From the NCBI RefSeq assembly GCF_003226535.1, contig NZ_QKOB01000001.1, positions 434,001-498,000 on the forward strand: 64,000 nucleotides of DNA, written 5' to 3'. The DNA is from Meiothermus sp. Pnk-1 (lineage in GTDB: Bacteria > Deinococcota > Deinococci > Deinococcales > Thermaceae). The translations under genes were made by a program, and so were the position numbers. The stretch's first letter is position 1. Every line of letters begins with the position of its first letter. Below the pieces are notes generated by a model that was not told the origin of the DNA, searched no databases, and saw nothing but the letters and a program-made list of their open reading frames with translations. This document shows positions 1,740 to 4,331 of the stretch, piece after piece.

Positions 1740-2003
1740 ATGGACTGGATTGTTGCCATTTTGGTGGGTGCGCTCATCGGCTGGCTGGCCAGCTTGATCA
1801 TGGGCACGGACGCCCGACAAGGCGCTTTGGCCAATATCGTTATCGGTATCGTAGGTTCGGCGTTGGGTCGTTGGCTATTTGCGGATGTGTTAGGAATCGG
1901 TGGCGCGGCGGCGGCGGGTAGCTTCAGCCTCATCGGCATCCTCTGGGGGGTGTTAGGGGCGATCGTACTGATCTTTATCCTGCGGGCAGTGCGGATACTT
2001 TAG
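1740..2003 (+). CDS. GlsB/YeaQ/YmgE-family small membrane protein
   Basis: An 87-residue protein with three hydrophobic segments (about 4-20, 30-50, 60-82) and the glycine-rich pattern of the transglycosylase-associated/GlsB family: [13 protein letters not shown], then [16 protein letters not shown], then a final helix ending in a basic tail. Members are small stress-induced inner-membrane proteins of unclear biochemistry. The ATG follows an excellent AAAAGGAGG site. The neighbours (orphan regulator upstream, SRPBCC gene downstream) do not clarify the role. Confidence 0.85.
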
Positions 2004-2076
2004 CCCGCTTGCGGCGTGTAGCATTGGCTCCCCTCAAGGGAGCTAAAATGCTGGAGTAAAGCACGAGGAGGAATGG

Positions 2077-2646
2077 ATGTACAAGGCCGAGGCTACCACG
2101 GTAGTTCCTGCCGACGTCGGCACAGTTTGGAGTTACATCTCTAATTACCAAAACTTTGACCAGTTCATGTCGCATGTAGAAAAGGTGACCATGCTAGGGG
2201 ATCGCACCTCTGAGTGGCGTTTGCGTGGCCCGCTGGGCATCCCGGTCACTTGGAAGGCGGTGACCACGGTCATGAACCCGGCCCGGGAGTTGGCCTGGCA
2301 ATCGGTGGAGGGCTCGATAAAAACCCAGGGCCACATCCGCGTCGAGCCGGAGGGAGAGCAAACCCGTATAGAAGTTTATGTCGAATACACCCCACCCGGT
2401 GGGGCAGTGGGAGAGGCGTTCGCCAGCTTGTTCAAGAATCCGCAAAAGATGCTCGAGCAGGACCTGGAGAACCTGCGCCAGATCATCGCGAGCTGGCCTG
2501 CGCACGAAGCTGTTCCGCCCGACCCGGAGGCTGAACTGGATGCCTCTTCCGACACCGACGCACCCGCTCCCCCCACCGCCTCCTCCACCCCTAACCCGCT
2601 CGAGTCGGAGTTGGTGAAAAAAAAAGACCGCTCAAGGCTACCCTGA
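2077..2646 (+). CDS. SRPBCC-family lipid/cofactor-binding protein
   Basis: A 189-residue protein. Residues 1-145 are a complete SRPBCC domain: it opens with YKAEATTVVPADVGTVW, has a WRLRGPLGIPVTW strand pair and ends in the long helix EQDLENLRQIIASW. The last 45 residues are a low-complexity acidic/proline/threonine tail. Such domains bind hydrophobic ligands; some act in membrane-lipid or quinone handling. An AGGAGG site precedes the ATG. The gene ends in GTG-A9-GAC..., and its TGA (2644-2646) overlaps the start region of the lipid kinase, which is readable only in the +1 frame. One extra A in the A9 run would fuse the two proteins. Confidence 0.85.
   Translation: MYKAEATTVVPADVGTVWSYISNYQNFDQFMSHVEKVTMLGDRTSEWRLRGPLGIPVTWKAVTTVMNPARELAWQSVEGSIKTQGHIRVEPEGEQTRIEVYVEYTPPGGAVGEAFASLFKNPQKMLEQDLENLRQIIASWPAHEAVPPDPEAELDASSDTDAPAPPTASSTPNPLESELVKKKDRSRLP
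2617..2625 (+). other. A9 homopolymer at SRPBCC/lipid-kinase frame junction (candidate slippage site)
   Basis: Nine consecutive A bases lie between GTG (2614) and GACCGC. The SRPBCC frame reads KKKDRSRLP-stop through it. Insertion of one A gives KKKRPLKATLIHNPNAGG, the proper N-terminus of the following kinase. A run of this length is the known transcriptional slippage signal in Thermus thermophilus dnaX. A sequencing error cannot be excluded. Confidence 0.5.
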
Positions 2647-3578
2647 TCCATAACCCTAACGCCGGAGGGGCGGGGGCCATCTCGAGCGCCGAGCTCGAGG
2701 CGTTGTTGATCGGGGCTGGGTATGCAGCCCAGCACGTACCTACCGAGAGCCCGGAGGATCTAGAGCGGGCGCTTTTGGACCCCGGCGACTTGGTGGTGGT
2801 AGCGGGTGGAGATGGCACGGTGCGGGCCGTGGCGGGGCGGCTGGCCGGGCGGGGCGTCCCGCTGGCCATCCTGCCGATGGGCACCGCTAACAACATCGGC
2901 GGGGCCTTAGGGTTGGTGGGGAGCCCCGCCGAGCTGATTGGCGGGTTGGCGGAACCGCAGCGCAAAACCTATGACTTGGGATGGGTGCGTGGACCCTGGG
3001 GGGAAGACTTCTTTTTGGAAGGGGCTGGCTGGGGCCTCTTCGCCGCCACTATGGCTGCTTATGACCCCGAGGCCGGGAAAAGCCCACTTCGCGCCCTTAC
3101 GTCTTTCGTCCAGGCCGTTTCGAGCTTCCAGCCTTGCCCTTTGCGGATATCCCTCGACGGCGAAGAAGTGGATGAACCAGCGGTGCTCTTGTTGGAGGTG
3201 ATGAATACCCCGGCGCTGGGGCCCCGGCTGCGCCTGGCCCCCGAGGCCAGTCCTTGCGACGGCTGGTTCGATGTGGTGCTGATCCGCGAGGATGGTCGGG
3301 TAGGCCTTACCCGTTATCTCTCCGGTCTACTCCAAAACCGGTTGGAGGAGCTACCCAATGTGACCGTACATCGGTGTAAGCGCTTGCAGCTTGAGTGGGA
3401 CGGTTCACCCTTCCACCTGGACGCCGAGATCCGCACGGCGGAACGTCCCGCGCTGGTGGAACTCGAGCTCCGGCCTGCAGCGCTCGAGCTTTGGTTACCC
3501 GCTGGGGTCCAGCCCCCGGAGGAGACCCCGGCGCAGCTCGGAAAGCTTCCGCCTGGGGCCACTCCCCAGGCTACCTGA
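2643..3578 (+). CDS. Diacylglycerol kinase-like lipid kinase (DAGKc/YegS family)
   Basis: The product has the DAGKc catalytic core: the N-terminal HNPNAGG strand-loop, the nucleotide-binding VVAGGDGTVRAVAGRL, and LPMGTANNIGGALG, followed by the C-terminal beta-sandwich domain. Family members phosphorylate diacylglycerol, sphingoid or related lipids with ATP at the membrane face. The start is unusual. The open frame reaches back to 2595 but has no ATG, GTG or TTG before a TTG at 2703, which would remove the NPNAGG motif. The options are a rare CTG at 2643 overlapping the upstream TGA (C-TGA overlap), or access through slippage in the A9 run, either as a fusion or from GTG 2614. I give 2643 as a compromise. 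The PHP gene follows closely. Confidence 0.82.
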   Translation: MIHNPNAGGAGAISSAELEALLIGAGYAAQHVPTESPEDLERALLDPGDLVVVAGGDGTVRAVAGRLAGRGVPLAILPMGTANNIGGALGLVGSPAELIGGLAEPQRKTYDLGWVRGPWGEDFFLEGAGWGLFAATMAAYDPEAGKSPLRALTSFVQAVSSFQPCPLRISLDGEEVDEPAVLLLEVMNTPALGPRLRLAPEASPCDGWFDVVLIREDGRVGLTRYLSGLLQNRLEELPNVTVHRCKRLQLEWDGSPFHLDAEIRTAERPALVELELRPAALELWLPAGVQPPEETPAQLGKLPPGATPQAT

Positions 3579-3587
3579 GGTGAGCGC

Positions 3588-4331
3588 ATGGATCAGCCGA
3601 AGCTCCCTCCTGAACCCACCGCCGAAGAAGTAGCGGCGGTGGGGATGGTGCGGGAGGGGATGATGCGCATAGACCTCCACTGCCACAGCGAGGCTTCGGC
3701 GGATTGCCGTACCCCGTTGGCGGCTTTCCCTGGGCGCTGTAAGGCCCGGGGCATTACCGTACAGGCCATTACCGACCATAACGAAATTTGGGGAGCCCAG
3801 CGACTGCGCGAGATGACCTTAGGAAGCGAACTCACGGTGATCGTGGGGGAGGAGGTCTCGAGCCGCGACGGCGAGATCATCGGGCTGTTCCTCCGCGAGA
3901 AGATCCCGGCAGGCTTGAGCGCAGAAGAAACCGTAGAGCGCATCAAGGCCCAGGGCGGGCTGGTGCTGCTGCCTCACGGATTCGATCCGCTCAAGCGCTA
4001 CCGGCTTACGCCCTCGGCGCTCGAGCGCATCGCAGGACAAATCGACATCGTAGAGAGCTTCAACGCCCGCATCTCCCGCCCTACTTGGAACCGTGCCGCC
4101 GCCCAATGGGCGGACGAGCGGGGTTTGCCTAAGAGCGCAGGTTCTGATGCTCATACCCTAGCCCAAGTCGGGGCAGCTTGGGTGCAAGCCCCCCAGCGCC
4201 CGATCCACACCCCCGCAGATCTCCTGGCGGCGTTACGCGAAGGCACCGTGATGGGGGAGTGGACCCACCCGGTCTTGGCTTTCGTGCAGAAGCTCTGGGA
4301 TATGGGACGCAAGCGGATGATGGGGGCTTAA
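3588..4331 (+). CDS. PHP-domain phosphoesterase
   Basis: A 247-residue PHP protein. The metal-binding signatures are visible: DLHCHSEAS near residue 28, an ITDHNE segment near 60, GEEVSS near 85, LPHGFDP near 130 and a final SAGSDAHT near 185. These His/Asp/Glu residues hold a trinuclear metal centre that hydrolyses phosphoester bonds; nucleotide, tRNA-type and histidinol-phosphate substrates all occur, and the substrate here is unknown. The gene starts 9 bases after the lipid-kinase stop, so the SRPBCC, kinase and PHP genes look like one operon, closed by the hairpin at 4358-4379. Confidence 0.88.
   Translation: MDQPKLPPEPTAEEVAAVGMVREGMMRIDLHCHSEASADCRTPLAAFPGRCKARGITVQAITDHNEIWGAQRLREMTLGSELTVIVGEEVSSRDGEIIGLFLREKIPAGLSAEETVERIKAQGGLVLLPHGFDPLKRYRLTPSALERIAGQIDIVESFNARISRPTWNRAAAQWADERGLPKSAGSDAHTLAQVGAAWVQAPQRPIHTPADLLAALREGTVMGEWTHPVLAFVQKLWDMGRKRMMGA

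Follow-up and report, generated by a model that had tools for sequence, protein, structure and literature searches.

A candidate transcriptional-slippage fusion of an SRPBCC protein and a lipid kinase at an A9 run in Meiothermus

Gene organisation at the locus

The window, a 64-kb stretch of the Meiothermus sp. Pnk-1 genome (G000) in whose positions all coordinates are given unless another locus is named, contains an SRPBCC gene and a lipid kinase frame that overlap out of frame at a run of nine A, read directly from the sequence as GAG TTG GTG AAA AAA AAA GAC CGC. The features of the locus and of the dnaX runs discussed below are listed in Table 1. The initial annotation had described the A9 run and the closure of the SRPBCC frame shortly behind it, a kinase frame that is open before the run and holds no ATG, GTG or TTG until a TTG located after the NPNAGG motif, and a CTG overlapping the SRPBCC stop codon; all of these are present on direct reading.

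Table 1 Features of the SRPBCC-kinase locus and of the dnaX runs in the two Meiothermus genomes.
Feature	Location	Strand	Remarks
Transgly_assoc protein, GlsB/YeaQ-type	1740..2003	+	conserved upstream neighbour
AGGAGG, Shine-Dalgarno-like, of the SRPBCC ORF	2066..2071	+	5 nt 5' of ATG 2077
SRPBCC ORF as read from DNA (A9)	2077..2646	+	189 aa; C-terminus ELVKKKDRSRLP; TGA 2644-2646
Putative SRPBCC-kinase fusion reading frame	2077..3578	+	500 aa with A10 in the mRNA; 499 aa with A7
Pro/Ser/Thr-rich linker, SRPBCC domain to A run	2512..2616	+	absent from stand-alone SRPBCC paralogues
Lipid kinase frame	2595..3578	+	open from 2595; begins PARVGVGEKKRPLKATLIHNPNAGG; conserved from AGA 2625
Proposed slippage site, A9 run	2617..2625	+	A8 in congener G001
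CTC at the position of the relatives' ATG start	2631..2633	+	CTG in G001; M. granaticius: M-R-A-T-L-I-H-N
CTG overlapping TGA 2644-2646, rival non-AUG start	2643..2645	+	use would delete half of beta strand 1 (3 of 6 residues)
TTG, first ATG/GTG/TTG of the kinase frame	2703..2705	+	3' of the NPNAGG motif
Metallohydrolase, PHP-domain	3588..4331	+	conserved downstream neighbour
dnaX A9 run, G000	L176 (G000:C6:370500-375000) at 2511
dnaX A10 run, G001	L185 (G001:C1:398200-402200) at 2063	-

The run is the sole one of at least eight A in the window. In the 3.5-Mb genome of G000, a tally by pattern search and from retrieved stretches gave 20 distinct runs of at least eight A over the two strands; the longest are A9, of which there are five. 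Since only about 1e-4 such runs are expected by chance per given 52-nt frame overlap, the occurrence of an A9 run within the overlap exceeds chance. A scan of the junction surroundings revealed neither a promoter-like site nor a telling terminator.

Domains of the SRPBCC protein and the kinase

Residues 1-135 of the SRPBCC protein match Polyketide_cyc2 (PF10604, SRPBCC superfamily; 7.6e-16, 59.1 bits versus a cut-off of 27.4), and the nearest solved structure is Deinococcus DR_A0006 (2kcz, 3ggn). SRPBCC paralogues standing alone were found 12 kb upstream in G000 (68% identical) and in the relative G002 (61%). Unlike SRPBCC / Polyketide_cyc2 proteins such as DR_A0006, the window protein has a 35-residue linker rich in Pro, Ser and Thr that leads into the A run; the stand-alone copies lack it. 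The G000 paralogue at G000:C1:423247-423720 (L058) seems, in part of its N-terminal half, nearer to the protein of the congener G001 than to the window copy, a resemblance that may reflect gene conversion. In addition, the tail of a distant SRPBCC protein, 24% identical, lies upstream of the pair at a distance of under 2 kb, in positions 1-245 of the window.

The kinase frame contains DAGK_cat (PF00781, 2.2e-19) and YegS_C (PF19279, 3.8e-18), both above the Pfam cut-offs, as well as the NPxxG, GGDGT and PMGTAN motifs expected of YegS/DgkB lipid kinases, and its nearest solved structure is DgkB (2qv7). It thus shares both domains with the YegS/Rv2252/BmrU and DgkB lipid kinases, but differs from them in scoring under the curated cut-off of TIGR00147 (90 versus 118.65 bits) and in having no start codon of its own. 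AlphaFold2, run with 18 sequences, produced a confident kinase model (mean pLDDT 88), the first strand of which is K14-H19 of the modelled protein P0001 (KATLIH). A kinase starting alone at the TTG was rejected because it would miss motif 1 and beta strand 1; an ordinary annotation that begins there would yield a kinase without its first motif.

Comparison with a congener

The same SRPBCC-kinase pair is found in G001, which we take to be Meiothermus (Allomeiothermus) silvanus DSM 9946, with a run of A8; the kinase start is missing in both genomes. Our within-genus comparison comprises these two genomes; a search of the GTDB contigs found no further congener. The two proteins are 81% (SRPBCC) and 90% (kinase) identical at the amino acid level. 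In G001, the kinase frame opens at the run itself, just after a TGA formed by GTG-A.

We varied the run in silico from A6 to A12 in both species, and only A7 and A10 joined the frames, giving fusions of 499-504 aa, while all other lengths gave SRPBCC proteins of 185-193 aa. In G000, an extra A yields ELVKKKRPLKATLIHNPNAGG and 500 aa in total, and run lengths of A6, A8, A9, A11 and A12 lead to a short SRPBCC protein of 188-192 aa; in G001, the frames join with A7 (503 aa) or A10 (504 aa). The initial proposal that one added A joins the frames accordingly holds for G000, where A7 (499 aa), which it had not mentioned, joins them as well, but does not extend to the congener, where -1 or +2 is needed.

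Between the two genomes, dN/dS is 0.07 for the kinase, 0.17 for the SRPBCC frame and 0.08 for the downstream PHP gene. The last 17 codons before the run differ at 2, 0 and 10 sites by SRPBCC-frame codon position, and the 26 kinase codons that follow it, all ahead of every possible conventional start, at 0, 1 and 9 sites by kinase codon position (binomial p ~4e-4 for the kinase codons and ~5e-4 for the SRPBCC codons). Selection thus acts on translation in the SRPBCC frame as far as the run and in the kinase frame beyond it, so that purifying selection holds on either side, in a different frame on each. The zero-frame tails past the run differ across the species (DRSRLP and TAEGYPDP), which is what an incidental ending would lead one to expect, and the short SRPBCC product may be a by-product rather than a functional protein.

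We read the region preceding NPxxG in the kinase homologues. Apart from L082, which was set aside since the wrong stretch had been matched, eight loci without a match to the motif pattern, and the more distant loci L216-L220, which fall outside our claims on kinase starts, the start lies 7-14 aa before NPxxG in all but the two congeners. In G002, M. granaticius (G005) and the metagenome-assembled genome G011, the kinase begins with ATG-Arg, and this ATG aligns with the CTC of G000 and the CTG of G001.

Slippage-prone runs in dnaX and insertion sequences

In Thermus thermophilus, dnaX undergoes slippage at an A9 run and about half of the product is of each kind (PMC5009743, PMC1088944). Both Meiothermus genomes have a run in dnaX. 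In G000 it is A9, with tau in frame (638-codon open frame); in G001 it is A10, with a 486-codon frame in which only gamma is in frame, and a tau of 624 codons needs an A9 mRNA. The dnaX difference is the same run-length drift as that between A8 and A9 at the SRPBCC-kinase pair, although tau is presumably a required product of dnaX. Within the genus, the dnaX product that needs slippage thus switches between G000 and G001.

Insertion sequences with orfA and orfB are a published class of slippage genes (PMC1088944), and G000 carries one in which an A8 run lies between orfA (HTH_Tnp_1) and orfB (rve integrase) in two frames (L171, G000:C4:72000-76000, at 2006, minus strand). On inspection by eye, four other frame-breaking runs of at least eight A in G001 (L195, L198, L205 and L213) resembled chance open frames.

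Interpretation and alternative explanations

Taken together, we consider it probable that RNA polymerase slippage on the A run produces an SRPBCC-kinase fusion in addition to the short SRPBCC product. The ORF for the SRPBCC domain and its linker overlaps a startless YegS/DgkB-type kinase out of frame at a slippery run; the polymerase would slip on this run and generate an mRNA pool with several A lengths, of which the A7 or A10 messages would encode the SRPBCC-linker-kinase fusion of 499-504 aa and the remaining messages the SRPBCC-linker protein of 185-193 aa, ending shortly past the run. Transcriptional slippage would explain both species, because all length classes are made. We infer the slippage itself and both products from sequence. 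The SRPBCC domain might then present or sense a hydrophobic ligand for the kinase; such a coupling of lipid binding to phosphorylation is suggested by the names of the domains. The proposal that the kinase is a C-terminal extension of the SRPBCC protein made through slippage has gained from the congener with the same arrangement and the same missing start, from the purifying selection on each side of the run in its own frame, from the ordinary start that almost every other homologue has, and from dnaX in both genomes. We regard the observation as real and better supported than the sequence of the window alone had allowed, and as being of some unusual evolutionary interest.

The pair is best read as programmed transcriptional realignment, an already known kind of recoded gene. 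The comparative criterion of Baranov et al. 2005 asks that two homologues which are not identical share one fused-ORF organisation, and this is what G000 and G001 present. A homopolymer of about nine A or T lies in the overlap of out-of-frame ORFs, with the A8 of G001 at the lower edge, and in both genomes the downstream ORF is conserved as a protein without a start of its own. The nearest precedent is the dnaX of Thermus thermophilus, which belongs to the same bacterial family and likewise has A9 on the coding strand; as there, several mRNA run lengths would give a long and a short product. In Thermus dnaX, however, it is the message without slippage that encodes the long product, whereas the SRPBCC-kinase pair needs slippage for the long one, like the A10 dnaX of G001, and the parts joined here occur in relatives as two separate genes. 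Shigella mxiE, mapW and IS transposases also consist of overlapping out-of-frame ORFs at a homopolymer that are joined by slippage (PMC1088944), but these are other proteins; in our case the run length varies between two species, and the kinase goes back to a gene that had a start of its own. No report of this SRPBCC-lipid kinase pair turned up in searches of the literature.

An ordinary in-frame fusion, with the run length wrong through a sequencing or assembly error and in truth A10 or A7, would fit the fact that homopolymers are classic places of error and that a single base restores one 500-aa ORF. Yet it requires independent errors in two genomes, one of which, DSM 9946, was sequenced by Sanger and 454 and polished with 9 million Illumina reads, with a stated error rate below 1 in 100,000 (PMC3035272), and the dnaX run also varies between G000 and G001; we thus hold it to be improbable. 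If the true run of G000 were A10, the frames would already be joined in that genome, but G001 would go on needing slippage. Quite improbable, too, is a separate kinase whose translation begins at CTG 2643 or at ATC, both non-AUG codons, through coupling to the SRPBCC stop. The CTGA overlap in G000 and the same CTG a few bases before a TAA in G001 speak for such a start, which the initial annotation had named as the alternative, but it lost ground in our analysis: the codon lies 3 aa before NPxxG instead of the 7-14 aa of the homologues and halves the confidently modelled first beta strand by removing K14-T16, the CTG found in G001 at the position of the relatives' ATG is CTC in G000, and no well-placed ribosome-binding site was seen.

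Ribosomal frameshifting by -1 on A_AAA_AAA could yield the fusion in G000, where the three AAA codons of the zero frame lead into the -1 frame, a known slippery motif, and a GGAG ends 8 nt 5' of the heptamer. In G001, however, a -1 shift on A8 ends at a stop after KKKDS and not in the kinase, so that the heptamer leads into the kinase ORF in G000 only; the downstream structure, with z -1.4, does not look unusual, and the two lysine tRNAs of Thermus are taken as the reason why its dnaX relies on slippage by the polymerase (PMC5009743). The A8 run of the congener, from which the fusion needs -1 or +2, favours transcriptional slippage over such frameshifting, which we judge very improbable. Lowest in our estimation, and highly improbable, is a phase-variable or decaying locus at which the run length drifts in the DNA and most cells lack the kinase. 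The variation of the run between the congeners and the presence of another lipid kinase gene on contig C6 agree with this idea, but the kinase shows no stops and a dN/dS near that of the PHP gene, which implies that it is being used. Phase variation may nevertheless occur in addition to slippage.

If transcriptional slippage is indeed at work, two neighbouring genes have become one without an in-frame join, the polymerase supplying the frame, and the kinase, like the tau of G001 dnaX, would exist only through slippage; few cellular genes require slippage for their long product. We see about an even chance that the pair is a frozen intermediate of gene fusion, in which the kinase depends wholly on slippage, this lineage tolerates drift of the run between A8 and A9, as between A9 and A10 in dnaX, while keeping the kinase, and the ratio of fusion to short product is set by run length. 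An A8 run is expected to slip less than an A9 run, and the fusion output in G001, where -1 or +2 is needed, could be low. A fold of the lipid-binding type and a lipid kinase in one polypeptide would, in addition, be a biochemical idea open to test.

Gene order in relatives and origin of the pair

In G002, M. granaticius (G005, locus L071) and G011, the locus reads response regulator (divergent), GlsB-like gene, kinase and PHP gene, with no SRPBCC gene in between, and at none of the loci examined in the nearest relatives does an SRPBCC gene adjoin the kinase. The simplest history would be that an SRPBCC gene was inserted before the kinase, the linker grew and the kinase start was lost, an order of events suggested by this comparison. 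Two peculiarities of the relatives' kinase genes were observed. At ~3111-3530 of L068 (G011:C194), the kinase ORF of the metagenome-assembled genome is split between two frames, possibly by an assembly error. In G002, a kinase gene of the same score occurs twice (G002:C3:458160-459053 and G002:C7:924057-924950), one copy being near the end of C7, which points to either a duplication or overlapping contigs.
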